33,582 nucleotides of DNA, from assembly GCA_004335835.1 (NCBI GenBank), contig RWJK01001265.1:5635-39216 (forward strand). Reading direction: 5' to 3'. Position numbers and translations under genes: made by a program. The notes beneath the pieces were generated by a model. The model was not told the DNA's origin. It did no database searches and saw nothing but the letters and a program-made list of their open reading frames with translations. This DNA comes from Scenedesmus sp. ARA3. Taxonomy: Eukaryota > Chlorophyta > Chlorophyceae > Sphaeropleales > Scenedesmaceae. Positions 263 through 31,430 of the stretch are shown piece after piece; the stretch's first letter is position 1, and every line of letters starts with the position of its first letter.

Positions 263-3200
263 GATGGATAGATAGGTGCTGCTATGGCAATCTACCAATC
301 TTCGTGAGGCCTCTCACCTTCATCAGCAGCAGCGATGCCGCGGGGTGCATCCGGGTCAGCCAAGATGCGACAGGCGGCCCTCAAGTCTGCCAGGCTGTAC
401 TCCCCGGCTGCTGCTGCTGCCAGCAGCGGCTGCACTTCTGTGCGCAGCTGCGCTGCTATTGACAGTGCATCAGCAGTGAGGGTGGGTGGGCCCCAGGCGC
501 CCGTTATGGCTGATGCGCCCAGCTGCAGATACGTCACCTGCACAAACAAAGCAGCAACAAATGCAGCGGCACGTGCAGCAGTGCAAAGGGCAGGGCAAGG
601 CAAGGCATGTTTGTGATCGCCAGTTGCATGTGAGGCGCACTTGTAAAGCAGTAGAACCAGTTGCTGCTGCCACTGACAGCGCATCAGCAGTGAGGGCAGG
701 CAGGGCCCCCACAGGCCCCTGTGGTGGCTGATGTGCCGAGCTGGAGATACGTCACCTGGAAAAGCATACAGCAGCGATTAGTGCAGTGGCGCAGCGCGGG
801 CAGGGCAACTCAGGTTCACTATGTATGTTTGCAGTTAAAGAGAAAGTCGAATTGGTTATATTGGAATTGGGATTTCCATTCACCACTGCTACCGACAGCG
901 CGTCGGCAGTGAGGGAGGGCGGCCCATAGGCCCCTGTGAAGGCTGATGCGCCCAGCTGAAGGTGGTCACCTGCAAAAGAGGCAGGTTGGGATTGTACCAT
1001 AATGGTTAGAAGCCTGCTGTAAGGCAAGGACCGGATAAAAATTTACAGCCTCTTTCATGCTAAGCCAGACCTTGCTGGAGAAAAAGAAACATGCGATTTT
1101 GAAATGTGCAGCATCTGTGATAAGCGCTACCATTGGGTGAAGTGCGGTGCAACGTTTATTTATTTATTTTTGTATTAGAAATCACTCTATGCAGTTCTGA
1201 CCTTTTGCGGGAAAGCCACCAGCTGACCTGTGAAAAGTAGGTTTAACAATCCTCCCACCCCTTACCTGCAGCATGCGCGCCAGCTGGTCCATCAGCGGCT
1301 GCTGCAGCCCCAGCTGGGAAGCTCCCCCCAGCAGCTTGCTCAGCTCCAGCACGCCCACTGACGACAGCAGCTCAGCATAGCCCTTGGACTGCTGCTGCTG
1401 CTGCTGCTGTTCAGCGCTGGCGCTGCTGCTGTTGGCCTGCAGGACATGCCAGAACACGTTTGGATGATAACAATGGTTGCGTTGTATGCATGTGTGAGGT
1501 CTGTGACGTGGCGCATGCGGATGGTAGGTGGCTTGCGGGACGTCTCTGAGCACCGAGCCCTTGAAACAGTTCAGGCTGCAGTCCGTGAACTGCCTCACAG
1601 GAAGTGCGGCACACCCAGTGTTACAGCCGCCACCGCTGCTGCTGCTGCTGCTGTAGCTGCTACTACAGCAGCCATTCCAGCCCGCCATCTCGTGTGCGTG
1701 TGTCGATGCATATGCAGGGTACGCACCTGCACTGACAGCAGCTCCAGCAGCAGGCTGTGCAGCGCCTAGTGCACACAGCTACCAACCACTGGCTGCAGCT
1801 ACGTTGACAATCACAGCAAACATGAAACTGCTTGCAGCAGGCGCAAGGACCTGCACGACAGCAGCTGCAGCAGCAGGATACAACAACTTCATCTGCTGCT
1901 GCTGCTCTTGCCGAAACTAGCCACCCTACAAGCATGTGGCGTTTAAACCAGGCGCACTGACCTGCACCGACAGCAGCTCCAGCAGCAGGATGTGCAGGGC
2001 GCAGGCGTGCACCTGCAGCCGCCACGCCGCCGCCTCACACTCCGCCACATCCTGCAGCTCAGCAGAGGCTGCTGGCAGGCTGGCTGCGGTGGGCAGGCAG
2101 GCCTGCGCATTTGATGATAGAGCAGCGAAAGCAGCAGCAAAGATGCAGAAACATCAGCCGGCCAAAAAGATGAGAAGAAGTCTCTCCTGCTTGGGGGAGG
2201 GGGCTGGCAGGCAGCCCGAGGTGGGCAGGCAGGCCTGCAGCAAACAGCACACAGTGCACACACGCACAAGGATTATTATCAGGGAGTATGTTGCATGCTG
2301 TCCTTCATTAGCTTTCAGGTTTGGGGTTGACGAGTTAAACAGCGCTGTCCAAGCCTATGAGTACCTTGACGGCCTTCCAGCTTTCTGTTTGCGGTCTCAG
2401 CAGCTCCACGGCGCTATGTGCTGCGCCCTGGCACTCCCACAGCATAGCCAGCAGAAGCGTCAAATACAACCAATGAAAGCACACGCCAATGCACAAAAAC
2501 ACGCACATCATCATCAAATTGCTCACCTTGAAGGCCTTCCAAAAGTCTGGCTGCCCTCTCAGCAGCTCTACCGCGCCGTGTGCGGCGCCCTGGCACTCCC
2601 ACAGCGTAGCCAGCAGCCGCAGCAGCGCCAAACACATTCAACGCAAGACCATACTAACACACAGACATACGCACTGAACTACGAGAGTTGCTCATGAGCA
2701 GGTGATCACCTTGAATGCCTTCCAAAAGTCTGGCTGCCCCCTCAGCAGCTCCACGGCACCGTGTGCCGCCCCCTGGCACTCCCACAGCGCAGCCAGCAGC
2801 CACAGTGTAGCCAGCAGCCACAGCAGCGCCAAACAAAATCAACGCAAGAACATACCAACACACAGAGATTCGCACTGAACTATGAGAGTTGCTCACCTTG
2901 AATGCCTTCCAACAGTCTGTTTGCGCTCTCAGCAGCTCCAACGCGCCGTGTGCAGCCCCCTGGCACTCCCACAGTGTAGCCAGCAGCCGCAGCAGCGCCG
3001 AACGCGGTCATTTGAAACCCACACCAATGCACATAGATACGCAAAGAACACTTGAAATTGCTCGCCTTGAATGCCTTCCAAAAGTCTGGTTGTGCTCTCA
3101 GCAGCTCCACGGCACCATGTGCCGCCCCCTGGCACTCCCACAGTGTAGCCAGCAGCCGCAGCAGCGCCGCCAGCAGCGCCGGCTGGCTGGCCAGCAGCGC

Positions 3201-3729
3201 AGGGGCCTGGCGCAGCAGCTGCCACATGCCGTCAAGCGCTGAAAATGGCGGCTCGGTGTCTTTTGCGTTTGCCCCTTTGCTGCTCTTGCCTGCAGGGGTG
3301 GTTGTATCTGCTGCTGCTGTTGAGGTGTCGGTTGGCAGTTTGAGGGATGATGGGAAGCAGAGGGTATCCAGGATCTCCGAATGCGACCTGCAGCAGCAAC
3401 AGCATTGACCAACAGAGCATGATTTGGTGCATGCAAGCTGCCAGAACAGCAGGCAGGCAGCAGACATCATGTGCAAAAGGCTACTGACGCCTGCAGCATG
3501 AACTGATATCAACTGCTTGCCTGAGACCAGCAGTTGCTTTGCAGCAGCACATAGTGGTGATATCAAGCAGCTGCAATGTGTGTACGGGCGATCAGCACTG
3601 TCTGTTCGTTTGCACGCCAGTGCATGTGTTATGTTATGACTGTTATAACAATGCCTGTCGCGCACCGTGCGCCCGCCTCCAGCAGCGTCATGCACCTCAT
3701 GGCCCACTCAGGGTACTGCTGCGCAACCT

Positions 3730-3769
<40 letters not shown>

Positions 3770-4203
3770 GAAGATGATGCGCAAAGCACTTGTAACAACA
3801 CACCAACCACGCACAAAGCTTGCCCATGCATGCTCCTATCTGCCATGTCCCATAAACGCCAATATGTGACGCAACCACGCCCCCAACCGAACGTGCCAAA
3901 ACGTTGTGGCACATATGTTCCGCAGAAACGTGACAAAGAGTATGTTGCCCATGCGCAGTTTGGGCCACTTATGCAGCACCACGCCAGACTGGCTGTCACA
4001 TCATGCTTCTGCCGCTGTCGCGTTCCATCTGCCACTGCCAGCCGACTAGGATGTGGGAATCAGATGTTGGCTGCATTCGACATACCTGTGGCTCGAATGG
4101 CCGCAGCAGTGCGCCGCGCAGGTCAGGCACGGCCGCCAGCAGCGCTGCAAACAGCCCTGAGGGCCGCCACCAGCCACCAGCACCACCTGCATGCGTTGCG
4201 GCC

Positions 4204-4247
<44 letters not shown>

Positions 4248-7200
4248 GCAGCCATATGTCGCACGTCGCATGCATTGCAGGCGACATGCATAAACATGGG
4301 TGGCTTGCAGGACAAAATGTGCTCAACGACGGCCGCATGCTGTTTGTAATCTTCACACCACTGCTGGTGACAACATACATCCATTGAGGAGCAGGAAGCA
4401 GAACAGCACCTGCCAGGCATCACTTCAGCAGAAACCTTGTGATACTATTCACATTCAAATTTGCTGCGTCGTCAGAGCTCATACGTCTGCACTGCACACC
4501 TCTGCCGCCCAATCCCAAGCCAGTAGCAGCAGCAGAGTGCAGCCCCCTTAGGTAGGGCTGAGCAGGGTTGAGCCCACCCTGCACAGGCCCAGCTAATGCA
4601 CCCAGCCCTGCAGGAGTGCCGCCACTGCCCGCCACCGCTCGGCTGGGGAGTGCTGCTGTAGCCTAACAAACAACACATGACAAACAGCCACTACAAGCAG
4701 TGCTTGTTTATCTAAGCATAACACGCACTGCTCACCTCTGCCGCCAAGTCCAAGGCCAGTAGCAGCAGCAGAGTGCAGCCCCCTTAGGTAGGGCTGAGCA
4801 GGGTTGAGCCCACCCTGCACAGGCCCAGCCAAAGCACCCAGCCCTGCTGGGGTGCCGCCACTGCCCGGCACTGCCGGCCCACCACCGCCCGGCTGGGGAG
4901 TGCTGCTGTAGCCGAACCCGCTGGGGCCTGCTGCTGTTGATGGGCCGGCCTGCAAAGTAAGATTTTAGCAGCGCAGTGTATGTGGATGTGGCCGTTTTGA
5001 ACATGTCAGTTGGCGCTGACTTGCTTGTCAGACAGCAACAGGCACATGCATGTGGCCACGTCGCTTGCTGTTGCAGCTGCGCAGGGCATACTGTGGCACA
5101 AACGTGACAAGTGCTGCTGTAGCCGAAGCCGCTGGGGCTTGCTGCTGTGGATGGGCCGGCCTGCAAAGTGCAGTTTGCAAGGTGGTTAAAAGGCCGTTAC
5201 AACATGTTCAATGTTTTACACAACATGCGTCAAGGCTAATTTAGAAACTTTCCATTGACAAAAGCAGCTGTCGGCATGTGCCCATCCGCATGCTGTTGCA
5301 GCTTCGCACAGCAGTAACAGGCTGACGGCATGCTGGCAGTTGTTGCAAAACAGCGCAGCTGACTTTGCAAGGTTTCTACCACTGCAGGGCTCACCTGGAG
5401 AATGGCAAAGGCGTTCAGCGCCTCCAGTGCCAGCAGCGGCAGGTGCGTGGCGTAGGGGTAGGTGGCGTAGCTTGCGATGATGGCTGCTGGGCTCAAGCCA
5501 CCACCCGGAGGGTCCTGAAAAGAAAAAAAAACATGCAGCAGCAGTGCAGATAGATGCTTAGGATGCTCGTCACATCGAGTCAACATTGGTATAGCCGACG
5601 ATGATGGCTGCTGGGCGCAAGCCACCGCCCCGGGGGTCCTGCAGCAGCACAACAGCAGCACACACACAGCGGCGCACAAAGGATGCTTTAGGTGCTGGTC
5701 TGCTGAGTTGCTCTGGCATAGCTCGCAATGATGGCTGCTGGGCTTCAGCCGCCACCCGGGGGGTCCTGTAAAACCAGAAAAGGCATGCACGAGCAGCACC
5801 GAAGGGAGGCTTAGGATGCTAAACAATGAACTCAATGTTTTGCTATGATTGTGAGGTACCTGCCTATGTATGCACACATCAAAGCACCACATGAGCAACA
5901 TAACAACATTCAAATGAGTCCTTGGATCGCTGTGGCGTTCACGCTGCTGACTCACCGCGCCCCAGTACTGCTGCAGCGGCATTTCAGGCGGACAGGTGGC
6001 ACAGCAATACAATCACCGCAGGCTACAAATCAATAAAAAACATCAACTCACCGCGCCCCAACACTGCTGCAGCGGCATCTCTGGTGACAGGTGGCACAGC
6101 GCGCCCTGGTACAGCACTACAACTACAGCAGGCTACAAAACGATTTGAGGATACATCAAACTCACTGCGCCCCAGTACTGCTGCAGCGGCATTTCAGGCG
6201 ACAGGTGGCACAGCGCATCCTAGTACAGCACTACACTTAGCGCAGGCTACAACACAATACGATAAAACATCCAACTCACCGCGCCCCAGTACTGCTGCAG
6301 CGGCATCTCCGGTGACAGGTGGCACAGCGCGCCCAGCAGCACCGGCACCAGCAGCAGCAGCCCCTCCGCCAGTTCACTGCCTGCATGGCAGCACCAACAC
6401 AGGCTGGTAAGACGAAACCGAGGACTTTGCTGGGAGATTAGCATGCGCTTCCTGCACAGATGTTGGTTTTGTGTTCAGCAGGACCAAGTGCAGGCACAAC
6501 GTTCTGCAGCAGCCCATCACAGAAGCCATACCTGCTGGCTGGGTTGTGTCTACTTTTGTTTGTTTGCAAATTTCAGCACTGGCAGGACGAACTGAACATA
6601 CAATGTTCTGCAGTAGCCCAGCACAAAAGACCATACCTGCAGCCAGCAGCGCGCTGCTGCCGGCCTGCTGCTCCGCCATGTCTCGCAGCGCATCAGCGGG
6701 AGGTGGCAGCGCCGCTGACAGGTAGCCGTGGCCTGCAGGACAAAACATTGTCATCAGGCAAGTTTAGGGGTTTGAGTCAGTAAGAGCATGAAACAGGGAG
6801 TCCTGGCGTGCGGCGACATCAGTGCAATCATCATTTAGGCTGCAGTTTCAGCCGGCCAGCAGCGTAGCAACATAACAAGCATGCATGCGTAGAACACACC
6901 CTCCCACCTGCTGTCGCCAGGTCATGCACCACCTTGGCAGCCAGCACCGTCACCAGCACTCCGCCAGGCGCCCCCGCTGCTTTCGGCCCCGCTGCTCCCG
7001 GCTGCGCCACAGCACCAGCCACCAGTGCTCCCCGCACCACACCCAAAGCAGATGCAGCCAGGCTCATGCGTGCTGCTGCACAGCTGAAGGGCAGCCAGGG
7101 CATAGCGCCCAGAACCCTATGTAACACAAAGCTGACAAGGCCAGGCACTAAGCCCCAGGTGCACTGCTGATCCAGCAGTGAGGATGTGAGGCTGAGCACT

Positions 7201-9626
7201 GCTGCAGTGAGCGGGTAGGACTTTGCAGGAACCTCCAGGTTGTCCTGCAAGGCCTGCAGGAAAAGTAACCGGCGGCAGACATGGGGGCAAACGTTGGAAA
7301 AGATGTGAGCAGCAGTAGCGCGCCTGCGCTGTGCGGCAGGCAGGACAAAAGCGCAGCATGGTTGTCTGGAACAAAACTGGAGCGGACACGAAGGAAACCG
7401 TTGTTACATATGTTACAGGTATTCCAGGTGTCTGCATTGTGTAAAACATGACTCCTGCCGCACCTGCAGCGTCTCAAGCGCCCGCCAGTCCTCCGCAGCT
7501 TCAGCAGCAACAAAAAGGCAGCGACGACTCCAACACCACGCCCACAACACCCCCAAACGATCCAAGACAGCAGCCAGCTTTTCAACTACTGCAGCCATCA
7601 CGCACAAAAAATGTCGTGCCGCCCTTTCATGTACAGATCATAACACCACCAAGCACTGCCAAGCCAAAGCAGTCATGTAGTCACTTGTTTGGTAAACAAA
7701 CCACTTTTCAGGCTCTCTTCCCGCACCTGCAGCGTCTCCAGCGTCCGCCAGTCCTCAACAGCTTCCGCAGCCAGCTGCTGCTGCTGCTGCCGCTGCACCC
7801 AGCCCGCCAGAGCCTCCAGCGGCACCAGCGGCAGCGGCTCGTTACAATTCGAATTCAAACTGCCCGCAAACAGCTGGCAGGAGCCCAGTGCTGCCAGCAC
7901 ACGCCCTGGCTGGCAGCCTGCTGCTGCAGATGCAGCCAGCAGGCAATCTGCTAGCGCTTCCAGCACCTGCTGGCCAAATTCAAACTGGCTGCTTTTCCCG
8001 CCATTTCCTGCAGTCGCTGCGCTGGCGGTTGCAGCGAGCGCTGGCAGCACATTGAGTGAGGCGATAATAACATCCAGCCAGTCCATCTTTTGGCTGCCTG
8101 CGTAGTCAATGCGGACTTTCATCAGGGGCTTGGCGAGCAAGGGCTCTGACTTGAGGAGTGCTGCTAGCAGCTTCAAGATGAGGCGCAGGTCCTGCAAGGA
8201 AATGCAAGGGCAAGTGAGGCACAGGAAGCAGTCATGTTATGTTGCAGCTATGTCTTCATCAGGAGCTTGGCCAGCAGAGGTTCTGACTTGAGGAGTGCTG
8301 CTAGCAGCTTCAAGATGAGGCGCAGGTCCTGCAAGGAAATGCAAGGGCAAGTGAGGCACAGGAAGCAGTCATGTTGTGTTGCAGCTCCTGTTTCATCAGG
8401 GGCTTGGTGAGCAGGGGTCCTTGGGCTTGAGCAGCGCAGCCAGCAGCATCATGATGACCTCAAACGCAAGGGCAAGTGAGGTGCAACAAATGGCAAGTTC
8501 TTTTTTTGCAAAGCACGGCAGGCAGCATGACTAACATCGTGATAGAGGAATTGACACAACATGGCAGAAAACATACAGAACAGAGGATACATAATATATG
8601 ACAGGACTAGCAACAAAGATTGCGGCATCCAGTGCAATCTACCCACACGCCTGCCAGTACTCGCTGCCGGCCACTGCCTGCCGTGCCACATTCACCACAT
8701 GTTAGAAAACACAACAGGCAGCAAAGGCGCACGCCCGCAGTGCAGTATGTTTGCACACACCTGCCAGTACTGGCTGCCAGCACTAAGACAAGAGCACGAC
8801 CGACACACCAACCATACACAAGATGTTAAAGCACTCAGTGCAGGCCTGTCCACTCACCTGCCAGTACTCGCTGCCGGCCACTGCCTGCCTGGCCACATTC
8901 GCCGCATGACAGACAGCATAACATGCAGCAGAAGCGCAAGCCGTGCAGTGCAGTTTTTTGGAGACGCACACCTGCCAGTACTGGCTGCCAGAACTAGGAC
9001 CAGAGCATGACAGACACACCAAACAAACACAAGATGTAAAAGCATTCGGTGCAGGCCTGCCCGCGCACCTGCCAATGCTCACTGCCAGCCACTGCCTGCC
9101 GTGCCACATTCACCGCATGCAGCTGCTGCAGGCAGTGCGCCGCACGCGCCAGCAGCAGCACCGGCCCAATGCCCTCCTCTGCTTGCACATCCCAGGCCAC
9201 AAGGAAAGAGCCTTGGTCTGCTGCTGCTGCTGCTGGTGCTCCGCCGTCTGAAGCTGCTGCTGTTGCTGCTGCTGACTTGACAAACTCTGGGAGAGGATAC
9301 ACCTTTCCGCGGATGCCCTGCAGCAGACAAGCATACTGAGGTGTCAGGCTATCTTCGCTGTGGGGTGACGCAGCCAAAAGCAGCGGCAACAGCCCTGCAG
9401 CCACCTGCTCTGCAAGTCAAGTCCCTTGGCAGAAGCAAGCTACACAACTCGCAGATCTAGCGGCTGCGCAGCATACGCACCTGTGCACCAGCGCAAGCAT
9501 CACCTATACTATTCTGTGCTCGTCTACATTTGCACCACAAGCCACGCACCTGTGGCAGGTTGCTGCCCTGCACCTCGGGCGCCTTGGGCCATGGCAGCTC
9601 CTGCATCAGCAGCGCCTCATCACCCT

Positions 9627-9657
<31 letters not shown>

Positions 9658-12600
9658 CAGCAGCAGCGGCAGCGGCAGCAGCAGCAGCAGCAGCAGCGCC
9701 ACAGCAGCAAGATCTTGTCACAATGCTTGCTGCCGATGGTGGCTTTGCTGCTGGGGAAGCCACCATGTGCTGCTCTGAGGTCGCCTGGGCTGCCTGTTGT
9801 GCATCAGCAGTATATTGTGTTGTAGTTTTGTGCGGCGGCAGTATATCTGTTGCCCATGAACACGCCAGGGCCTTGCAGGCAGCAAAGGCGTGGTGACATC
9901 CAACCGCCCTGTCACTGGCAGGGCAGACACATACAATGATGCCATGTATCATCCGCAGCCAGCAGAGTAACAATCAGGTGCCTTGTCTGGTCTGACTTTT
10001 GAACTGCTGCACTGCACACGCAGCTCAAATTTGCTCGCAGACCACCACCCGACAGCAATAGCAGCACTTGTGTAAGGGGCTTTCCACTCACCTGCAGCAG
10101 CACGCCTGCGCTGCCTGCCTCATACGCAACCGCCAGACTTGGCTTATTGCAGATGTAGCTATAAGCTGCATCGCCAGCCTCCCTGCCTTGGCACAGGCCA
10201 GTGGTCAGCTGCAGGAAGGGCCCGGGGACTGCAGGGAACATGGCGGCTGCCTCATCGAGAAAGTGGCGCAGCGGGCGGGTGGCGTCCAGGGACTCGTCCC
10301 ACACCTGCTGCGCCAGCTGCGGGGAGTCTGCAGGGAGTAAAGCAAGTTTCGCAGAGCAAAAACAGGGCATGAAAGGGTTGTGTTGTTCCATAAGCAGGCA
10401 CATGCAGAAGCAACAGCAGCCGCAGGGTGGTGGTCAGTGTCAGGAAAGGCCCGGGGCATGCAGGGAACATGGCGGCTGCCTCATCCAGGAAATGGCGCAG
10501 CGGGCGGGTGGCGTCCTGGGACTCGTCCCACACCTGCTGCGCCAGCTGCGGGCAGTCTGCAGGTCAAAGAAAGTAGCATTGCCATGGGGAAAGAAGGCCG
10601 CTGGAAAGGAGTTTGTCTGATGAATCAAGAACGGTAGCAGCAGCATATGCAAGGCAAGCAGGCGACATAGCCCTACAAGTTGTGCCAGCGAAGCCGTTTG
10701 TTTTTGTGTTTCCTTGCTTTCTCACCTGCCACCACAGCTGCCCACAGCTCCAGCAGCTGACTCAGCACCGTCCCCGGCAGCCGCCAGGGGCTCAGGTCAA
10801 AGGCGGCACTCCACACTACACAATGTCATTAAAATAATAAAGTTCCTCCCCTCCCCCACCAGCCACCACAGCCGCCCACAGCTCCAGCAGCTGACTCAGC
10901 ACCTGCCCCGGCAGCCTCCAGGGGCTCAGGTCAAAGGCAGCAGCCATCCGGCACTATCATGCACTTCTTCATTATTGTCATCGGTTCTATGAGCGATTGT
11001 GGATTTTTTCCACAGAAACCTCTTGCAACCTCTTTGATATGCCCCACCTGCCACCACAGCCGCCCACAGTTCCAGCAGCTGACTCAGCACCTGCCCCGGC
11101 AGCCTCCAGGGACTCAGGTCAAAGGCAGCAGCCATGAGGCATAAGCCTTGCAGCAGCAGGCCCCTGAACAGACCCCCATACCGGCGTGCCTATAATCTGC
11201 AGGAACTACGCACCACACACGGCCAGCTGCACCACAACATGACAAAAGCCCCATCTGGCATCCCGCCGCTATTTGTTTTCAATCTCTTGCTGTCTCACCT
11301 GCCACCACCGCCGCCCATAGCTCCAGCAGCTGCGTCAGCACCTGCTCCGGCAGCAAGCAAGCCAACTGCACCCACAATATACATAAGGCCCATCTGGCAC
11401 CCCACAGCAAGTAATATTATTACAATTATAAACGTGAGTTTTTATGTGTACGCACCTGCCACCACAGCCGCCCAGAGCTCCAGCAGGTGACTCAGCACCT
11501 GCCCAGGCAGCCTCCACGGGCTCAGGTCAAAGGCAGCAGCCATGAGGCACAAGCCTTGCAGCAGCAGGCCCCTGAACAGGCCCCCTGCCAGCATGCCTAT
11601 ATCAGCTGCAGGAACTATGCACTGCACACAGACAGCTGCACCACAACTCAACACAAAAGCCCCATCTGGCACCCCGCCCCAAGGTGTTTCTGGTTTTCTT
11701 GTTATTCTTACCTGCCACCACCGCCGCCCACAGCTTCAGCAGCTGCGTCAGCACCTGCCCGGGCAGCCAGCAAGCCGACTGCACCACAATATACATAAGG
11801 CCCATCTGGCACCCCACAGCAAGCATTACTATCATTGTTAATATAAGGTGATTTTGTATGTGCCCTCACCTGCCACCACAGCCGCCCAGAGCTCCAGCAG
11901 CTGCGTCAGCACTGTCCCAGGCAGCCTCCAGGGACTCAGGTCAAAGGCAGCAGCCATGAGGCACAGCCCCTGCAGCAGCAGGCCCCTGAACAGGCCGCCT
12001 GCCAGCGTGCCGGGGGCCAGCTCCTCTTGTTGTAATGGGGCTGCGATGGCTGCAAAGCCGCCTGCCTGCAGCGCCATTTGCTGGATGCTCTCCGAGATGG
12101 CATCTGCACAGAAGCGCAGCGCAAACAATGGATGAGTGGGTTGAGGACTGAGGATTTTTGGGGTGAGGATAGGTATCGGCTTGAGCAGAAGCAGCGCCAT
12201 CTGCTGAATGCTCTCAGAGATGGCATCTGCATGAATAGAGGCAAGAATTGGATGTGTCGGATGACAGTCAACACGGGCAAGAACAAGAGTGTGCTGAAGC
12301 AGAGGCAGCGCCATCTGCTGAATGCTCTGCAAGATGGCATCTGCAACAAAGCAAGCACTGGATGTGTGGATCAAACCCTAATCAGAAGTACTGACACACC
12401 TGCAGCTCCCCTGTAGCTGGCCAGCAGCCAGTTGCACGCATACACCGACAGCAGCCACCACAACTTGCGTTCTTGGTTGTACTGGTTGTACGCATACACC
12501 GACAGCAACCGAAACAACAAATTTTCAGATCGCCTACACGAGTTGGCTTAAACCCAACAAAACAAGGGCAATAGCACGTGTTTGAAAATCAATCGAAACC

Positions 12601-16836: not shown

Positions 16837-19597
16837 ATGGCGCAAGCAACCATCAGTGTCGCGCCTGCGGTCACAGACAAATCAGAGCAGCTTTGTGCAG
16901 CGGCAGCGTCGGCAGCCACGTACAGCATCCATGACGACGTGGGCGAGGTGCTGTTCACGAAGCAGCAGATGGCAGAGAAGGTTGTAGAGATGGGGAAGCT
17001 GCTAGGAAAGACATACGAGGTGGGATACGTGCCAAGTGCCGCGCCATGCATCCAGCCTGGTGCATGGTGTGCTAACCCAACCTCCCGCCCCTCTGTGATC
17101 GGCTGCTTGCAATTGTTTGCATGCAAATGGCAATCGCTGTACCATTCTCTTGCATCAGGCACGCACACTGGATGCTGAGCACACGCTGCATCATACCTAG
17201 CACCTGCTTGGCTGTTGGCTGTGGTACTGCTGTCAGCTGCTGTTCCTTGCCTTGCACACTCTTCCTCCCTGGACACCTTGCTGCACTTTGATTCACATGC
17301 TCCGTGCATGTTTTCACACAATCTGCAGGGCAAGGCGCCAGTGCTGATGCCTATCCTCAAGGGCGGCTTCATCTTTGCTGCTGACCTCATCCGGGCACTG
17401 GACCCCTGCCCAGAGGACTTGGTGGTGGAGTTTGTGTCAGCAAGGTGGGCTTGCCGTCAAGAGCAATTTGTTGCACAGTCCTGCAGCATGTGCACCAGCA
17501 AGGTGGGCGTAGTGTGAGCTGTAGTTGCATGCGTGTCCTGCTTTAGGCATGTGCGCTAGCTTGCATGCTGCAAGAGCAGCAGTCCTTGGGTGGCAGCGAC
17601 AACGTAGCAGTGCCACACAGCAATTGCTGGGGCTGCAGTGCAGCAGCAGTAGCAGCAGCTCAGCACATTCACAACAGGCATTTTGCAAACATCAGGTCCC
17701 TGTTGCTTGTGCCAGCAGCCACTGCATGTCAGCAATGCAAGCAGCTGACGCGACAGTCATTTGATGCTGTGCCAATTTCACACTGCCTGCTTGATGCTAA
17801 TGCGACTCTCAACGCCACTTGCATATCATGTGCCGCCGCCTCGGCTGCCGCTACTGCTTGTGCTGCTTATGTGTCATGTACCATCAGGTCATACGGCGCC
17901 CGCACAGAAACCAGCGGCACAGTGCAGGTGTCGTTTGATGCCGAGGCAGTTGCTGGCAGGCACTGCCTCATGGTGGACGACCTGTGTGACTCAGGGCTGA
18001 CACTGCTCACAGTGAGTATGAGGCCCCACCAGCTGTTGTAGCCTACAGTGAGGATGCGGTTGGTGCCCAGCTGCTGTCGATGCTGCAGCGCAGCACTGGC
18101 TGCAGAAGCTGCTGCAGCATTGTAAAAGGGCGTATGTGTGCTGCGTCTGCGTATACTGTGCAACCAGGGCACATGCAGGGCCTGCGGGCTGCTGGCTTCT
18201 TTTATGCACAGCAGAGCAGTGCAAAATGCTTCATGGGTTGCGAGCGACATGCAGCAGCAGCAGCAGCAGCAGCATACAAGTGTATTCAGATCTTCAGGGA
18301 TGCGCCATCCACCCTGCTGTTCACTTATTATTCTGTTGCTGTCTCTGTTCCTGCAGCATTTCAACGTGTGCCACCCGCCACATCCGCTGCTGCTGCTGCT
18401 GCTGCTGCTGCCAATTGCAGGTGCGTGACCAGCTGCTTGCCGCTGGCACTGCCAGCGTGGCGTCAGTGGTGCTGCTGGACAAGAGGGCACGGCGCAAGGT
18501 GAGGCGTGGGCCTGATATGTTGTGGCATGATAGATCCAACAGGCCCCTCAGGCTTAGGGGTATATAGGTCAGTGTGTTGGTTCAATTTCAGGCACTTCTG
18601 CAGACATGACCCCTGGCCAGTGGAATCACTACCCTGCAGTGCTCTTGTGGTGTCGCTCGGCAACAAGCAGCGCAAGGTGGGATGGTGCAAGATTTGGATG
18701 GTGTGGATGGCAAGGGGACTGCCCATTTGTTCATCTGCAAAATGGCGAGGGTTTTTCTTGCGCTGGGCCGTCCACTGCCTTTCAGGCTTGTGCTCTGCTT
18801 CCCATACTGTTTTCTGTTCATGTTGTCCTGATGCTGCAGGTGGCTTATGATCCCGACTTTGTCTGCTTAGACTGCCCCAACCAGTGGGTGGCAGGCATGG
18901 GCATGGACACCTTGAAACCCTCGTCATACCAGCTGCTTTCACCAACTCATTTGTACCAAGACCTGATGCCTGCAGGTGGCTCACGATACGGACTTTGTCT
19001 GCAAAATTGCCCCAACCAGTGGGTGGCGGTCATGGGCATGACCAGCGTTCAACTTCCCTTGTTACCAACCACTGAACTTTTTTCCTAACGTCTGCAGGTG
19101 TCCTATGATCCCGACTTTGTGTGCCTGGACTGCCCCAACCATTCGGTGCAGGGCATGGGCATGGACACCGTAAAAACCTTGTCATACCAGCCACTTCTAT
19201 CAACTCATTTGTTCCGTGACCTGTTGCCTGCAGGTGTCCTATGCTCCCGACTTTGTTTGCCTGGACTGCCCCAACCAGTGGGTGGCGGGCATGGGCATGA
19301 TCAGCGTTCAACTTCCCTTGNNNNNNNNNNNNNNNNNNNNNNNNNNNNNNNNNNNNNNNNNNNNNNNNNNNNNNNNNNNNNNNNNNNNNNNNNNNNNNNN
19401 NNNNNNNNNNNNNNNNNNNNNNNNNNNNNNNNNNNNNNNNNNNNNNNNNNTCCTATGATCCCGACTTTGTGTGCCTGGACTGCCCCAACCAGTGGGTGGC
19501 AGGCATGGGCATGGATACCAACCAGCGCTACAGGTCCATGGACTACGTGGCAGTGCTCAAGCCCGAGGCAATCCAGAAGGCCATGCATTCTGCATGA
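16837..19597 (+). CDS. Hypoxanthine-guanine phosphoribosyltransferase, five exons
   Basis: A purine-salvage enzyme that joins hypoxanthine or guanine to PRPP to give IMP or GMP. Exons: 16837-17019, 17329-17444, 17888-18011, 18421-18498 and about 19448-19597; phases agree and give 216 residues, close to the 218 of the human enzyme. Visible family features: LKGGFIF (about residues 71-77), the flexible-loop motif SYGARTETSG (101-110), the PRPP-binding motif CLMVDDLCDSGLTL (126-139) with the acidic pair D130-D131 and presumed catalytic Asp134, DKRARRK with the base-contacting Lys162, and PDFVCLDCPNQWVAGMGMD (172-190) with Trp183 at the purine-stacking position usually held by Phe. The first three bases of the last exon lie in the N gap and are inferred as GTG from its copies. 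I see no N-terminal targeting signal, so it is probably cytosolic. Confidence 0.9.
18640..18676 (+). repeat. Donor-end echo of HPRT-like exon 4
   Basis: The end of exon 4 and its donor recur 178 bases downstream. The copy encodes a diverged VVSLGNKQRK before gtggg, against VVLLDKRARRK before gtgagg at 18498. Confidence 0.7.
18840..19597 (+). repeat. Five-copy acceptor-end echo array of the HPRT-like last exon
   Basis: The acceptor and the first 60-75 exon bases, encoding PDFVCLDCPNQWVAGMGM, occur with exon edges at 18840, 18976, 19098, 19234 and about 19448 (the first three spacings 136, 122, 136). Only the last continues to NQRYRSMDYVAVLKPEA and the stop. The copy at 18976 has lost a base or two (FVCKIAPT reading), so it could not replace the real exon. 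The array is interrupted by a run of Ns, so the true copy number is unknown. Confidence 0.92.
19321..19450. other. Assembly gap of 130 Ns
   Basis: The gap falls exactly in the tandem acceptor-echo array before the last HPRT-like exon. It hides the acceptor and first codon of that exon and perhaps further copies. Confidence 1.
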
Positions 19598-19648
19598 TCT
19601 GATGGACGCTTGAATGTTCAGCTAGGCCAGCGGCAGCAGCGGCAGGTT

Positions 19649-19885
19649 GCTGGACTACGTGGCAGTGCTCAAGCCTGAGGCTACATGCATTCTGCATAAA
19701 TGCAGCGGCAGCAGCAGCAGCAGCAGGAGCAGCCGCCGGACTACGTGGCAGTGCTCAGGCCGGAGGCAATTCAGTAGGCCATGCATTCTGCATAGATGCA
19801 GCAGCAGCATAATCATGAGCAGCAGCAGCAGCTGGACTTCGTTGCAGTGCTGAAGCCGGAGGCATCCAGAAAGCAATGCACGCAT
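19649..19885 (+). repeat. Three echoes of the HPRT-like terminal coding segment, beyond the stop
   Basis: After the stop at 19597, three partial copies of the final coding bases (DYVAVLKPEA to the HSA stop) start near 19650, 19738 and 19832. Each is joined to a short (CAG)n-containing spacer. They carry frame-breaking differences, including an early stop in the second copy, and presumably lie in the 3' untranslated region. Confidence 0.85.
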
Positions 19886-21388
19886 GAGTCCGCCATCAGG
19901 CAATTTGCAGGCGGTGCAGCAGCAGCAGCAGCAGTGGGTGGCTGCAACCCGAGGCCATTCAGCTGCAGCAGCCAGGCCGTGGGAGCTGTACGTGGCAGGG
20001 TGGCTGTGCTGGCGTTGCAGCTGGGCTGTTGACAGTGAGATTGCATTGCATTTTCTGCTGTGGTGACTTTAACCACAGCATAAGCTGCATCGGCCTGCGG
20101 CTGTTGTGGCTGCTGTAGCATCTTGGCCTCCGCCACCTGTATTCTTTTCAGTTGAGCTGTCGACGCGTCGATGCAGCGACGAGCATGTGTGATATGCCAG
20201 CGGTGTGTGTTGCTGCTTCTGCGGGGGGACAGGTAGTGGGAGTTGAGGGTGTGTTCGGACGTCATTGAAGCGTGCATGTGGGTGTTGAGCCAAGCAGCAG
20301 CGCTGTGCTCGTGAGGAGATGTATGGTCGATGTGATTTGCGCCAGCTGTGGTGCTCAATGAAGAGTGTACATCGTGAGAGTGTGTGTGCGTGCTTCTGGA
20401 GTCCTGTGGTGCTGATGTGTTTGCTGCAACATGGCAAGCAGCATCATGGCATTGTGTGCGGGAATAGGAAACTGCGTATGGTGCATGCATAGGGAAGCGG
20501 GTATCGCCTGGAGCCATTTTTTTGCCTAGCAGGATGCGCCAGAGCCACAGCCAGCAGCATCATTTGCATGCCGGCTCCTGGATTATTGTGCACGCCTGGC
20601 CCTTTTGAGGGCGAACTTGTTTTGACCGCACATACGAGGAAGGTTTTTGTTTAGTTTTTGAGTGAAGGGATGCACGTGCTTTGCCAATGGCTGCCCAGGA
20701 GGCGCAGGCTTCGGCACTCCCTGCACTGAAGTAGAGGCAGTGCACATGTTGTTTGAGTCGTGCCAAATTTGATCGTGCTGCCTTAACGTCATTATTGCAC
20801 GTTCTCTACTGTTTGTACTTTGCGGATGGGCCTTGAGGCATACGGACGGCACCTTGATCAGTGGTTGAACGTTCGTAAAGTGTCTGCTGTGTTATCCCCT
20901 ACTGATGAAGCTGGCGGCGCGTTCGGCCACATCTAAACCTATTTTCCTGACGTTACAATACGCCATGAAGGCATTCGAGCCAGTAACGTTGAGGTGAGTT
21001 GGTTGGACACGATATCGGTCACCCTGCAGAACTTCTGGTTGGAAGCTCTCTGGAAGCCTGGGTTCCCTGGTGCGCAGTACTAAACCGAAGAGTTTGATAG
21101 CCGACGTTCGCTCATCATCGGTTTGGCTTCCTTACCGCGATCGTGCACCGTAAATCAGACCTTACCCGTTCGCTGCGCAGGCTTCGTTGGTCCTGTGTGT
21201 CAAGAGCAAGACAGCATCCAATCACCATTCACATGCGTTTGTAGGGAAACTTGATCCATTCTGCCTATTTGCACCAGGAGCACGGCTTGTGCAGCCCATC
21301 AAGGCGTTCTCAGTTTGCCATTAGCAAGAGGCGCCTGATCTTGCGGTCTGCTGCCAACAACAAAAGCGCATATCGCCATTTGCAGCAG
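19886..21388. other. Intergenic region, no confident gene
   Basis: This stretch follows the HPRT-like terminal echoes and precedes the secreted-protein gene. A 234-codon open frame on the minus strand (20517-19813) is low-complexity and overlaps the echo array, so I do not accept it. A possible non-coding 5' exon of the next gene with a gtgagt donor near 20994 cannot be tested by eye. Confidence 0.5.
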
Positions 21389-24300
21389 ATGATACGTGTT
21401 ACAGTAATACGTGTGGTGCTGTGCCTGGGGCTGCTCAACCTCGGTGAGACAGGGTGCTGGAGCAGTGACTCTGGGTTCCTGGCATGCTTGCACATCCAAT
21501 CGCTTTTGTCGGTGTGAACAGTCTATTAACATGTTTACTGCTCTACTCAGTATTTCTCGGCACAATGGCAGCAAGTGGCACAGCAGCACTGCTGATGGAG
21601 CAGCAGCTATTGCCCATAGCCTGGCACCCTGCTCTGTAGCAAGCTTTTGTTGCTTCGTCAATAACAACATGCCATTGATCATATCTTGCAGTTACAAAAC
21701 AACTGTAATGGCATGTGCATGTTACATTTGTCAAACAGCTGACAGACTTGAATGCCTTCGGCAGCCGCACTGCACCCCTGCCCCAACCCACAGCTGCTGC
21801 AGCCACAGACTGCACAACACAGGCAGGTGTTCCGATCTGCTTAAACAAGGCGCTTGGTGAGTTGCAGCACGCCATGTGTAACACAGCAACAGGCGGCTTG
21901 CACTGCTTGGCCAGCTGCGGGAATGCCTGCCTGCAAGACAGCAGCACAACACCTGGGACAGACGCCCTGTTGCTGCTAGCAGCTGCACCTCGAGTCACTT
22001 ATATGGTTTGGTGGGCAGGTAATGAACCAGCTGTCGCTCGCTCGTTTGTGGGGCAGAGCATGCACTTGGACTACTGGTTGCCCGCGCCAGCCAGCTGCCG
22101 CGCTGCCGCGCTGGTCTCCTGGCTGCTTTTAGGAAGTGAGGAATAACTGTTACAGCAACCCTGTTGCGTGCCGTGGCTTGCAGGAACACTGGTCACTGAT
22201 GGATCCTGCACCACTAATTCATCCAGCATAGCCTGCCTACCTACCTCAACACCCGGTGAAGTGTGCAGCTACCCTGTCCTGCAAGACGGCACAGCGTGCC
22301 GCGCAGCAGCAGGCGCATGTGATGTAGCCGAGGTCTGCAACTACGCAAGCAGCGGCTTCAACTGCCCTGCGGATGCGCTGCGGCCTGCAAGCTTCGAGTG
22401 CCGTGCGTCGCCTGCTGCCAACTGCACCGGCAGCAGCGCAGTATGCCCACGTAAGTGATGAATATGCCGCAACAGTGCGGAATGCTTGTTGGCGGTGCCG
22501 CTGCTGCAGGCCAGCTGGCAGGCAACTGCACTGGAAGCAGCGCAGCATGCCCACTTTGAGTGGTGGCTGGGGCTGCAAAAAAGCAGGATACATTATGTCG
22601 ATAATGATGTCACTGCTGCAGGCATGCAAACAGCTGATTGCTGGCGGCTGCTGTTTGGTGCTTTACATGATGTTCACCACAAAGAAGGCTGCATTGCAGG
22701 TCGCCGGATGTATGAAGTATGCGGGCAGTTGCACACCACCAACATGCATGCACGGCGTCACATTACACCATGCAGCACATGTCCCTAGCATGCATGCTTC
22801 AAGCATGAAGTTTAGGACAGGATGCATTCTGTGCGCTCCCAACAACACGCTGCTCACCACCCAAACCAGGCAAAATGTATTGACCGCAACTGCTGCCTGT
22901 GTTGCATTGCTTGTTGTGCATGCCTGCAGCGCCTGACTGCACGGCGGTGCAGAACCTCCCAGCCTGCGTGAACCCCGCAACCGGTGAGAACAGCACCCCG
23001 CAGCTGAGTTACACAGAGCATTGCGGCGAGGATGACCACCTTCTAGCACAGTTGTATGCAGCGGAAGGCTGTGACAGTGAGATAGATAAGTACACAATCT
23101 GCTGCAGTGCAGATCTGTGCAGTGCTGCTTCTGCTGAGGAATGCTGCGCAAGCCCTGCCAGTTTTGTCAGCGGTTACATGCACTGCATCATGTTGACCAA
23201 GCTACAGCTAGATTTGTGCGTGTTCACTCACTGCACCGCGCTTCTTCCCACATTCTGGTGCATCCTCCCGGCTGCTGCTGCTGCTCTGCAGGCACCATCA
23301 ACGCAAGCTGTACCGCCAACTCCACCTCCGAGTACTGCCTCAGCATTGCCGGCTTCTCCTGCAGATACAGCTACCGGCTCAGCAGCGAAATCTGCAGGGC
23401 AGCAGCAGGAGCGTGTGATGCACCAGAGCTGTGCAGCGGGACATCTGCAGAGTGCCCTGCTGATGTGCTGCAGCCCAGCAGCTTGGTGTGCAGGGCCGCA
23501 AGTGTTAGCCCGCCTATGCCGGCACAGAACTGCACTGGCAGCAGCACCACCTGCCCTGCGGTGAGACACGCTTGCAGTATGTTTTTGCTGTGTATGCTGC
23601 GCTGTTTTTGTTTGCAGCATGCAAAGGTAGAGCTGGATCAGCAGTGTGATCTTGATATGCAGTTTGCAGTGCTTGCTGTCTTCTTCTGCAAGTTGTCGTC
23701 AGCCAGTGGCCTGTTACTCCGCAGCCAACAGTAACCAGCAGTCGCAACTGCCACATGCCGGCAGCAGCACCACCTGCTCTGCGGTGAGACACGCTTGCGA
23801 CATTTTTTCTGTTGCTGGATGTGCTGTTCCTTGTTTTATTGGCCCGTGCAGCATGCGCCAAGTAGAGCTAGGTTTGTAATGTGATCTTCTATTTGGGTCT
23901 TGCAGTATGTGCTGTGCTCTGCGGTTTGTTGTCGTCAGTCCGTGGCCCGCTATTTTGCAGCCAAACAGCAGGGCGGCACAACAACTGCCACATCACATGT
24001 GTTGTGTTGGTGAGCTCTGCTGGTCAACAAGCAAGTTGCTCTTACTGTCAAATGTTTGGGCACGGGCCTCAATGTGGCTGTTTGCTGCATGCTGCTGTTG
24101 CTGCTGTTTGCCCTGCAGTATGGCTTCAACACCAACTGCCCAGCGCAGGCGGTGCCAGGATGCGTCAACGCTGCGTCAGGTGGGTGCGGCATTGGCTTTG
24201 CCACCAGGGCCTCTTCTGTGTTTCAAGCACTTCTTTCCCCAAGGATGTGTGTTATGCAGCAAAACTCAGCACATTTTGTTGCTTGACAGAGGCAGCACAT

Positions 24301-27300
24301 GCATTCCAGCATCACGTTTTCATCAACAAAAACTGCATGACATGCAGTACCGCCTTAACCATACTTCCTTCCCCTGCTGCCGCTGCTCACCCGCTCCCAT
24401 GCGCCGCAGGTGTACCCGATGCAACCTGTGCAAACAGCACATCAGCATTCTGCCTCCTGGTAAACTCCACAGGAGTGATCTGCAAGTACTCCCTGAAACA
24501 AGGCGCCACAATATGCAGGGGCTTTGCAGGAAGCTGCGATGTGCAGGAAGTTTGCTCGGGCCAGAGCCCTGAGTGTCCTGCAGATTCCTTCCAGCCGAAT
24601 ACAACAGTGTGCCAGCCGGCAAGCGGGTCCATCCCTGCGCTGTTCTGCAGCGGCAGCGGCCCGAACTGCCCGCCGTATGGAAGCTCGACAAACTGCAGCG
24701 CGCAGGCAGTGCCGGCCTGCGTGAAGGCGACATCAGGTGAGCACGTGTTCTGTTGAGTTGTCAGGCAGCAAGCAGCTGCAACAGTGCTTGGGGCGTTTGC
24801 TGCAACAGCAAGTGGAAGGTCATGCACATGCCGTGTGTGTGACACCACAGGTGTTGTCGATGCCGGCTGCAACCAAGAGCTCATTCTTCTGCCTCAACAT
24901 CGGCGGCATCAACTGACACTGCCGTGCTGCCTGTGCTGCCTGAATGTATTATCCTTTACGTCTCGTCCATCACAGGAGCTGTCAATGCCGGCTGTGCAAA
25001 CAGCACCTCCAATTTCTGCCTCAACATCGGCGGCATCATCTGTGGCTACAGCATGAAAGCAGCAGGCACCACCTGCCGGGCATCTGCAGGCGACTGCGAT
25101 GCAGCAGAGACGTGCAACGGCACAGCTGTGGACTGCCCGGCAGATGCATTCCTGCCCAGTAGCACAGTGTGCAGGGCTGCCACAGTTACTCCAGTTGTGC
25201 CGGCACAGAACTGCACCGGCAGCAGCGCGGTGTGCCCGGCCTATGGTAGCGGCGTAAACTGCACAGCACAGACAGTGCCGGCATGTGTCAACGCTACATC
25301 AGGTGAGCGTGTTACATGATAACAGCTTGTACCGTACCGTACCTGTTGCAGGCGAACTAATGTATGGTGCTGCATGTGTCACTTGCACTGGCTGAGTCAT
25401 ATATACTAATACACTTCACTAATTGGCATCGCATCACTGCTGCTGCTGCTCCTCCTGCTGCAGGTGTGCCAGATGCCGGCTGCACCAACTCCACCTCCGC
25501 CTACTGCCTCGCCATCAGCGGCGTCACCTGCCGCTACAGCCTGCGCCCCAGCAGCAGCACCTGCAGGGACAAAGCCGGAGACTGCGATGTTGCCGAGCAA
25601 TGCAGCGGCACTGTAGCGGACTGCCCTGCTGATGTGCTGCTCAGCAATGCGACAGTGTGCAGGCCGGCGGCTGGATTAGTGCCGGAGCAGAAATGCACAG
25701 GCACGAGTGCTGGGTGCCCTGGGTATGGCAGTAGCGTGAACTGCAGCGCACAGACGGTGCCTGAGTGCGCAGACCCTGCGACAGGTGAGGCCATAACAGT
25801 GCATGCTGCAACTAGCGGGAGACAGTTGATGTTCAAGTGATTGTTGTGTGTCCAAGCACTGCTGGGGTGCTGCCTCAAGTGACAGTGAAGCGATTGACGC
25901 TCTCCCCCTGTTGCAATGCACCACATCAGGCAGTCAGCCACACTGTGTTGTTGTTTGCAGGCACGCCAAACGCAGCCTGCAGATATTGCCTCTGCCTCTG
26001 CCTCATTGTAACATTTGTCAACCTGTGTGCGGCATCTCCTGCAACTTAACGCTGCTTGCAGGCATGCCGGACGCTGCCTGCAATGCCGGACTCAGCTTCT
26101 GCCTCAATGTGACAGCTTCGAAAGTCACCTTCAGGTGCTCCTTCCGCCCCTCCAGCATCAAATCTGTCAACACACGCCGACACGCGTTTGTGTTTCCTGC
26201 AACTGTCTCTGCTTGCAGGCACGCCGGACGCTGCCTGCAACGCTGGCCTCGGCTTCTGCCTCAACTTGACAGCTTCCAACGTCATCTGCAAGTACTCCTT
26301 CCGCCCAACCAGCTTCACCTGCCGCACTGGCCCCCCAGCTACACAGTGCCCCGGCAATGCAGCAACCTGCCCTCCTGCGGACCCTCAAGTGCCAATCATT
26401 GGGCTGACAGTGTCTGTAAATGGGCTGTGCAATGACAATGTGTACAACACAATCCTGGCGAGCGTGCAGGGGCAACTGGTTGTAAATGCGGGAGGTGTGG
26501 TGGGAGCTGCTGTTAAGGGAGAGAAGGCGAATTGCACCAACGTGAGTATTGGCGAAAGCTGAGATAAAATGGGTGTTGACGACACTGATTGTTCAGAGTC
26601 AACACCGTAGGATTGGTTGATTTGCATCTGGCAGCAGAGCAGTTCAAAAATCTGTTAATCAGCCATCTTGAAACCGTTTGAAGTACACTGACACATCCTG
26701 AAGCACATGTGCATAGCCACACATCAACAAACAATGCATATGCCTACCCGTGCGGCCGCAACCTGCTGCCACAGACCAACGCACGGCGCCGCCTGCAGCA
26801 AGTGAACATCGCGCGTTACAGCCTTCGATTTCTCATCCAACACAATAGCAGATGCAGGCATTTTGAGTCAGCTGCGCTTCACCTACCAGAACTTTGTGAA
26901 TACAGTGAAGGCAAGCGGCATCGCTGCTGCTGTGCCGGGCCTGGGGGCTGCAGTGACAGCCATCACCAACGGCGCAGGGGCGGTGCAGGGTGCAGGTGAG
27001 CTGCCACTGCTGAATCTTTCGGCAGGGCATCTGCTGCTGTGAAAGGCAATGTATGCGCAGCTGGTGATCACGAGGTCTGTAGATACACTACTGGCTCAGT
27101 GTCCAGATCGCCAGCAGATGCTCGTGTCTACGAGGGCGTTTGTTGTGGTGCCACGGGTGCAGAAGCAGGGCTGCGTAAAGACAGTTACTTCGGAACTCCT
27201 ATGACCATGATGACCCTCGTGTGCATCACTGCGCAGCGCCCTTCAGTAGCACACCACTGCTGCCGTCACTGTTATTAACGCCCAGCCACTTGCTGCACTC

Positions 27301-31181: not shown

Positions 31182-31430
31182 TCACAGCAGTAGCACAGCT
31201 GTGGCCATGCGCACCAGCTCTGCCATGCGGCTGCACATCTCACCAGACAGCAATGGCTACCTCTAGCAGTTTCAAACCGTGGAAAAAAAGAGCATCGCCT
31301 GTGCAGCCCTCATCAGCACCTGTACACCACGTACTACATCAATCTTAACAGTACCACAGCAGTAGCACAGCTGTGGCCATGTCACTGCGCACCAGTACTG
31401 CCGTGCGGCTGCAGTGTGTCGCCCCTCACT
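31060..31430 (-). repeat. Tandem duplication of about 186 bp beside the H3-fold gene
   Basis: Two units are recognisable. AGCAATGGCTACCTCTAGCA occurs at about 31062 and 31248, and GCAGTAGCACAGCTGTGGCC at about 31187 and 31359. The duplicated segment includes the candidate last exon and its acceptor, so this gene may show the same echo pattern as the others. Confidence 0.85.
31182..31230 (-). CDS. Possible last exon of the H3-fold gene
   Basis: The open frame ends at TAHE just as alpha3 begins, while canonical H3 continues a little further. Splicing at GA|gtgagg (exon edge 31430) to the acceptor at 31230 would add DRMAELVRMATAVLLL and a stop in the correct phase, with a 199-base intron. This is a prediction from splice consensus only; translation to the TGA at 31426 is equally possible. 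Confidence 0.4.

Follow-up and report, generated by a model that had tools for sequence, protein, structure and literature searches.

The nearest described system is the potato RdRp gene, in which a segment made up of the 3′ portion of one intron and the 5′ portion of the exon after it was tandemly duplicated with the splice signals included (excerpts of PMC4974935, which also cite the Rogers model and ATP2A1). Introners, presented in the excerpts of PMC9860276 as similar introns at unrelated places, intronic minisatellites and tandem exon duplications (mutually exclusive exons) are further systems for comparison. Here, we analysed a stretch of 33,582 nucleotides (the window; bases 5635–39216 of contig RWJK01001265.1) from the genome assembly of Scenedesmus sp. 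ARA3 (87.27 Mb, 1567 contigs), in which exon ends recur with their splice motifs as partial copies in the adjoining intron. These copies are termed echoes. No description of such exon-end arrays was found in the titles and abstract openings of the open-licence papers searched. They are not mentioned in the genome announcements PMC5552973 and PMC5255914, and a term search of PMC12571836, PMC7955037 and PMC7590803 returned the word intron 0 times.

The echoes were tentatively interpreted (rough probability 0.45) as tandem duplications across the border between coding and non-coding sequence, in which sequence exchange keeps the exon part similar to the selected exon and the intron part is left to drift. 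The established part of this model comprises the locality and orientation of the copies, the side of the exon on which they lie, their non-coding evolution, the contrast between exon part and spacer and the recurrence of one array in a contig from elsewhere.

For mapping, exon ends were aligned with the adjoining introns; an alignment score of at least 28 was required and the junction had to be aligned. In this way, 45 echoes were located at 23 exon ends in three genes, together with three echoes of the stop-codon end of an HPRT-like gene. Each exon end had 1–6 copies with an exon part of 24–170 bp, close to the original prediction (one to six copies of 25–170 exon bases), and the arrays were seen by both self-BLAST and Tandem Repeats Finder (TRF), confirming that they are real. 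At least 13 NUP188 exons had been expected to carry echoes, and 13 of 21 were mapped (exons 3, 4, 5, 6, 7, 9, 10, 13, 14, 15, 18, 19 and 21, on one or both sides). Several exons of a secreted-protein gene are echoed as anticipated (exons 1, weakly, 3, 6 and 8). Two HPRT exons had also been named; HPRT echoes exist, but both sets belong to exon 5 (acceptor end and stop-codon end). The mapped echoes were as follows.

14373–14408, minus strand: donor-end echo of NUP188 exon 3
14115–14156, minus strand: acceptor-end echo of NUP188 exon 4
13126–13216 and 13220–13277, minus strand: two acceptor-end echoes of NUP188 exon 5
12603–12710 and 12398–12462, minus strand: two donor-end echoes of NUP188 exon 5, with a fragment at 12482–12507
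12191–12231 and 12305–12345, minus strand: two acceptor-end echoes of NUP188 exon 6
11707–11825, 11453–11597, 11294–11354, 11040–11190, 10853–10954 and 10721–10808, minus strand: six donor-end echoes of NUP188 exon 6
10423–10563, minus strand: acceptor-end echo of NUP188 exon 7
8850–8912 and 8642–8701, minus strand: two donor-end echoes of NUP188 exon 9
8255–8337 (tandem copy with intron flank) and 8391–8457 (alignment starting at exon base 10), minus strand: two acceptor-end echoes of NUP188 exon 10
7458–7508, minus strand: donor-end echo of NUP188 exon 10
6159–6231, 6044–6131 and 5950–6005, minus strand: three donor-end echoes of NUP188 exon 13
5587–5641 and 5714–5772, minus strand: two acceptor-end echoes of NUP188 exon 14
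5110–5169, minus strand: acceptor-end echo of NUP188 exon 15
4491–4655, minus strand: donor-end echo of NUP188 exon 15
2889–3000, 2703–2830, 2518–2629 and 2364–2454, minus strand: four donor-end echoes of NUP188 exon 18
2184–2242, minus strand: acceptor-end echo of NUP188 exon 19
1725–1842 (conserved part about 1725–1765) and 1843–1879, minus strand: two donor-end echoes of NUP188 exon 19, as aligned
658–763 and 886–977, minus strand: two acceptor-end echoes of NUP188 exon 21
18846–18911, 18985–19040, 19101–19169 and 19237–19299, plus strand: four acceptor-end echoes of HPRT exon 5
19643–19681, 19738–19793 and 19836–19880, plus strand: three echoes of the HPRT stop-codon end in the 3′ untranslated region (UTR), stop codons read from the sequence
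22476–22562, plus strand: weak donor-end echo of secreted-gene exon 1 (71% identity, splice site not kept)
23760–23792, plus strand: donor-end echo of secreted-gene exon 3
24843–24915, plus strand: acceptor-end echo of secreted-gene exon 6
25952–26022 and 26053–26160, plus strand: two acceptor-end echoes of secreted-gene exon 8, an array also present in a contig of another source

Comparison of whole exons with their flanking introns in the window genes gave 46 matches, 44 of them in the sense orientation. All 21 donor-end matches lay downstream and all 15 acceptor-end matches upstream of the exon (36/36), exactly as had been predicted. The eight further sense matches were interior exon pieces, all on the expected side and six of them no more than ten bases from an exon end; the two antisense matches were weak (31 and 49 bp). 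A complete exon copied with both splice sites occurred in 0 of the 46 matches. By a stricter rule with non-flanking exon ends as the control, 15 of 34 introns contained a significant echo, and the score cut-off was reached in three of 68 reverse-complement control tests. The median intron length was 563 bp with echoes and 308 bp without; the predicted enlargement of introns is thus supported as an association.

The three genes, for which models were made by hand (21, 5 and 11 exons), are the following.

318–15809, minus strand: NUP188-like gene with 21 complete exons in the window, the reference protein extending past the window start; exons 1–10 at 15809–15534, 15328–15022, 14722–14487, 13923–13474, 13067–12827, 12103–11870, 10327–10092, 9624–9550, 9317–9069 and 8191–7727; exons 11–21 at 7253–6908, 6732–6637, 6380–6280, 5514–5395, 4949–4736, 4186–4086, 3727–3666, 3387–3066 (GC donor), 2102–1962, 1436–1266 and 537–318
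16837–19599, plus strand: HPRT-like gene (PF00156); exons at 16837–17019, 17329–17444, 17888–18011, 18421–18498 and about 19449–19599
22184–28930, plus strand: secreted-protein gene, 11 exons used in the analysis

Joined in phase without any echo, the 21 exons of the hand-made NUP188 model gave a single open frame of 1554 amino acids. The protein is 99% identical to Tetradesmus obliquus OEZ85_002523 over the first 1144 amino acids compared; the full model differs from it by 13 substitutions and three gap columns. The name NUP188 has modest support from a PDB match to Nucleoporin (DUF3414; E = 2.6e-7) and a Pfam Nup192 match below the cut-off. The HPRT-like protein has T. obliquus OEZ85_002524 as its best match (given as 100% identity, although a single difference is seen when the residues are read), and the working acceptor of its exon 5 falls inside an N gap (19321–19450, 130 bp). 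These two protein matches place the alga in, or very near, T. obliquus (Sphaeropleales). Two further repeats were noted in the window: a tandem array outside the predicted genes at 32699–33582 (4.8 units of 183 bp, 86% alike, reaching the contig end) and, within 31042–31413, 113 bp direct repeats at 31042 and 31231 (189 bp apart), with a second pair at 31176 and 31348 (172 bp apart).

The annotated NUP188 protein of another assembly contained one copy of each exon end and no echo sequence. Summed over 11 families, changes at the three codon positions were 2:0:18 for those private to the working exon, 25:22:30 for echo-specific changes and 2:8:15 for those common to several echoes; secreted-gene exon 8, with echo-specific changes of 6:7:6, was excluded from the sum. 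The even distribution of echo-specific changes, the frameshifts and in-frame stops within echoes and their absence from the annotated protein show that echoes are not coding, and their interpretation as exons was rejected. In 22 echo pairs the differences were 31:22:72 by codon position, with 45 amino-acid-changing and 61 silent codons; a coding history was rejected as the source of this third-position excess, which is about that expected from a neutral echo and a selected exon. On the same grounds (an annotated protein without echo sequence and copies free of coding constraint), we found no evidence for the predicted supply of alternative splice sites.

A further 23 stretches (labelled L0xx; 220,846 bases, with 3,121 N in the eight added later) were first taken at arbitrarily chosen contig numbers, with long contigs used for the later ones, and are not a random draw. 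Genes in these were predicted with a self-trained gene finder, which scores some echoes as exons, so that the assignment of repeat clusters to borders, introns or exons is approximate. With simple repeats masked, the window and 15 stretches contained 145 local direct pairs and 0 inverted pairs, and an order-3 Markov control gave 0; the unmasked window listed three inverted pairs, each rich in CAG/CTG and separated by 1.7 kb or more. In the 23 other stretches there were 143 local direct pairs (at least one in 18 stretches) and 0 inverted. Their clusters were distributed as 53 at a predicted exon border, eight intron-only, three exon-only and six intergenic; three of the 53 (L013, about 920–1000 bp apart) are a duplicated gene piece and not echoes. 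At offsets of at least 90 bp, 51 border clusters (48 without L013) were found against four intron-only clusters; simulated random tandem duplications on the same gene structures gave 1.5 border-crossing events per intron-only event. Border clusters occurred in 16 of the 23 stretches (17 counting the L013 gene piece), in line with the genome-wide process originally proposed. Their density is roughly one per 4.4 kb, which extrapolates to perhaps 20,000 in the genome. The window is an extreme case, as local repeats cover 30% of it and 7.6% of the other stretches. Matches between stretches numbered 14, none in the window; the strongest of these few dispersed matches was a repeat of about 100 bp at 200–300 bp spacing in predicted introns of two unrelated stretches (L026 9335–9995 and L028 2263–2787, up to 97% identity).

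The exon piece and a few splice-motif bases are about 90% alike between echo and exon, and the adjoining intron is often unalignable. Over 57 echo pairs, identity dropped stepwise across the border (bases counted from it): 0.88 for exon bases 1–15, 0.80 for intron bases 1–6, 0.48 for intron bases 7–12, then 0.34 and finally about 0.29 deeper in the intron. Ungapped homology reached a median of nine bases into the intron at acceptors and seven at donors (five and three for unrelated splice sites); among 73 echoes it ended within 12 bp in 54 and exceeded 25 bases in ten. With gaps allowed, 20 of 39 testable flanks (among the 57 pairs) were recognisably related, and a recognisable far flank (P < 0.05) was present in three of the 13 farthest array copies, so that the intron part was often copied and at the far end is absent or beyond recognition. 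The pairs from outside the window in these flank statistics were picked by hand. Distances between echoes of a family were smaller in the exon part than in the spacer in 7/7 families (exon part/spacer): 0.14/0.44 for NUP188 exon 18, 0.10/0.39 for exon 6, 0.09/0.44 for exon 13, 0.17/0.44 for HPRT, 0.09/0.46 for exon 9, 0.21/0.50 for exon 14 and, with the smallest contrast, 0.28/0.34 for exon 10. The exon parts of the exon 18 and exon 6 echoes are ungapped.

The dinucleotide AG was kept in 38/38 mapped acceptor echoes and GT in 29/35 donor echoes (GC in two more), counts in which kept motifs were favoured because mapping demanded an aligned junction; two copies aligned without it (8391–8457 and 12482–12507). 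The score of donor positions +3 to +6 was 1.98 in echoes, 2.17 in real sites and −1.69 at random GT. At acceptors, the position weight matrix (PWM) score of the polypyrimidine tract was 0.53 in echoes, 0.87 in real sites and −0.59 in random intron, and the pyrimidine content was 0.63, 0.69 (P = 0.005 for echoes versus real sites) and 0.52, respectively. With signals nearly as strong as the real ones, echoed sites could possibly act as decoys, as had been suggested. The working donor of NUP188 exon 18 (3066) is GC (AAG followed by GCGAGC); among its four echoes, GTGA occurs in three and GTAC in one. At the HPRT stop end, the working gene and the three echoes end in TGA, TAA, TAG and TGA, which are silent variants of the stop codon. 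As this end is echoed in the 3′ UTR, the phenomenon is not restricted to splice sites, and the variants fit exchange under selection without a need for splicing. A possible second echoed coding end with a stop codon (TAG) was noted in L026 (7847–7900 and 8076–8129, 229 bp apart).

Exchange among copies was tested by four-gamete conflicts in six families against 400 simulations without exchange, by count and by ratio. The L026 array had conflicts in 45 of 91 site pairs, a level reached in 0/400 simulations by either measure; NUP188 exon 18 had conflicts in 26 of 44 site pairs, never reached by count but with P = 0.19 by ratio. Exchange is thus clear in one array and suggestive in others. Mosaic structure was seen by eye in two places. 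The exon 10 copy at 8255–8337, a plain young duplication that includes intron, starts identical to the exon and shares nearly all of 45 flank bases, while the last 26 exon bases differ; in L024 (2074–2375) near-identical spacers stand beside unlike exon pieces and vice versa. Two other arrays were inspected by eye. L026 634–1409 consists of seven donor-end units of about 118 bp with two partly alternating spacer types, suggesting multi-unit duplication. L025 1859–2307 is an acceptor array with a CTG-tract spacer and TTCTGC common to both unit ends, as expected for a tandem duplication made through microhomology.

Successive echo spacings, pooled over the window and the other stretches, were 61–280 bp, with 357, 371 and 708 bp from arrays entered by the far copy only; spacings of 176–188 bp occur within arrays (5/73). 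The distance to the nearest echo (n = 52, of which five are overstated because the farthest array copy alone was entered) was 102–143 bp in 25, 157–169 bp in five, 199–280 bp in 19 and larger in three, with none at 170–198 bp. Two size groups are suggested, perhaps near 120 and 235 bp.

In the proposed model, an echo would be born by local duplication of a segment whose two ends lie on either side of the boundary between an exon and its neighbouring intron or 3′ UTR, probably through an error of repair or replication. Such a duplication would be harmless because a complete exon continuing into its own splice site remains, and the gene would be left intact only with donor ends downstream and acceptor ends upstream. 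The intron part of the copies would then diverge through substitutions and indels, and the exon part with its splice motif would be exchanged with neighbouring copies and the working exon by unequal crossing over or gene conversion. Since the working exon is itself fixed by selection, the exon part would stay alike; we infer that this also causes the exon–intron contrast in single echoes. Unequal exchange within exon pieces would multiply the copies, giving n exon pieces and n − 1 spacers, so that the intron would grow and the protein would be unaffected. Several results weigh against this proposal. Of the six families, L026 alone passed on both measures, and exon 18 reached significance by count but not by ratio; exon 6 (P = 0.06 and 0.09) and HPRT (P = 0.17 and 0.10) were not significant, conflicts were absent in exon 13 and L025, and repeated mutation of silent sites could give the appearance of conflicts. 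Echoes that match the exon at 94–98% identity but whose far intron flank cannot be aligned (L009, L028, L024 and the exon 15 acceptor) imply that exchange is frequent or that the flank was never copied. Third-position changes private to the working exon (18 at 192 sites) exceed the per-echo level (30 over two to six echoes per family), an excess that exchange alone does not predict. The model also leaves without account the floor near 100 bp in the spacing of border-crossing repeat pairs (6/167 below 100 bp). Repair between homologues and function in place account better for parts of the data, notably the missing far flank.

The former alternative, which we regard as unlikely, is one-sided break repair templated by a diverged homologous chromosome. 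One-sided break repair occurs in plants. After a break in the intron, synthesis would run through the intron of the other homologue into the exon, and the new end would be joined to the other broken end without annealing, leaving the other allele's flank, splice site and exon piece as the echo. The side rule, the sharp edge at the splice motif and the good but unalignable polypyrimidine tracts of echoed acceptors would all follow, and all differences are silent in L008, the L009 donor and L019 905 and, by eye, L024. A related Scenedesmus is likely to be diploid with alternate haplotype contigs (accessible portion of PMC7955037), and the assembly of DOE0152z has roughly double the size of the UTEX 393 assembly (PMC5552973 and PMC5255914). 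However, arrays hold three or more distinct versions, and the 45 amino-acid-changing codons in echo pairs are above expectation for working alleles. An open reading frame of contig P0057 from another source (tag lgn, which we take to be Logan) spans the whole secreted-gene exon 8 array and differs over this non-coding sequence at three of 195 residues, and HPRT intron 1 shows two differences from an other-source contig before the frames part; both fall far below the divergence needed. An origin between homologues was weighted lower because of these few differences. The P0057 match (192/195 identical) also means that this array, present there in slightly different form, was not created by this one assembly, and assembly error was rejected for it; the earlier dismissal of assembly error therefore holds for one of the three arrays queried. 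That haplotypes or reads were wrongly joined in general is very improbable: the N gap in the HPRT array, the possible diploidy of related strains and the two of three queried arrays not found in other-source contigs favour it, against arrays with up to seven different versions (exon 6 and L026) and the neutral changes carried by echoes.

A doubtful proposal, judged from sequence features, is that echoed splice sites work in place under selection, as decoys or intermediate sites for the stepwise removal of long introns; thousands of introns would then keep spare conserved splice sites, each with an exon sample and no closer than about 100 bp to the real site. The kept dinucleotides, the donor scores, the largely kept polypyrimidine tracts, the 51-to-4 excess of border clusters over the random 1.5 to 1 and the lower divergence of exon parts in all seven families agree with this. 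Against it stand the HPRT stop codon, echoed likewise without a splice site, the frameshifts and in-frame stops within echoes and the bias of junction-aligned mapping towards kept motifs. It is improbable that the echoes are plain random tandem duplications that survived where harmless, with neither exchange nor function. One duplication across an intron–exon border is known (excerpts of PMC4974935), survivorship covers both the side rule and the rarity of copies inside exons, and the codon ratio of echo pairs is near that of a neutral echo and a selected exon. This reading was disfavoured since it does not produce sharp echo edges: the intron part was 12 bp or less in 5.5% of simulated border-crossing units, compared with homology ending within that distance in 54/73 echoes. 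Spacers are also more diverged than exon parts, and the cluster ratio departs from the simulated one, although intron-only copies become undetectable earlier and gene prediction takes some echoes for exons. Templated insertion at random positions was rejected, as no wrong-side copy occurred among the matches. An introner or mobile-element origin was rejected for the two spacers tested, each with one genome hit in a search that scored the best candidates only.

The echoes provide a natural and abundant set of exon-end duplications with selected and unselected copies 100–300 bp apart. The set allows intron growth and the rate of short-repeat exchange inside genes to be measured, and the choice of splicing site among several equally good-looking sites to be studied. 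For annotation it is a warning, as the gene finder called several echoes exons.

The echoes resemble tandem exon duplications and mutually exclusive exons in that exon sequence is repeated within an intron, but whole exons are not among the 46 matches and the copies do not change like coding sequence. As in intronic minisatellites, head-to-tail arrays can grow by unequal exchange, and repetition of whole units was seen inside echo arrays by TRF; here, however, the unit is anchored to the exon end, its exon part is more alike and the farthest units are often without a spacer (far flank recognisable in 3/13). With introners (excerpts of PMC9860276) the echoes share the alteration of many introns of a genome by one type of event, but neither of the two tested spacers had a second hit in the genome, and what is copied is the end of the local exon. 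The potato RdRp duplication was one event that made a new intron, whereas in the checked NUP188 gene no intron was gained and old introns were lengthened; here both exon ends are affected, with up to six copies, and the arrays are frequent genome-wide.

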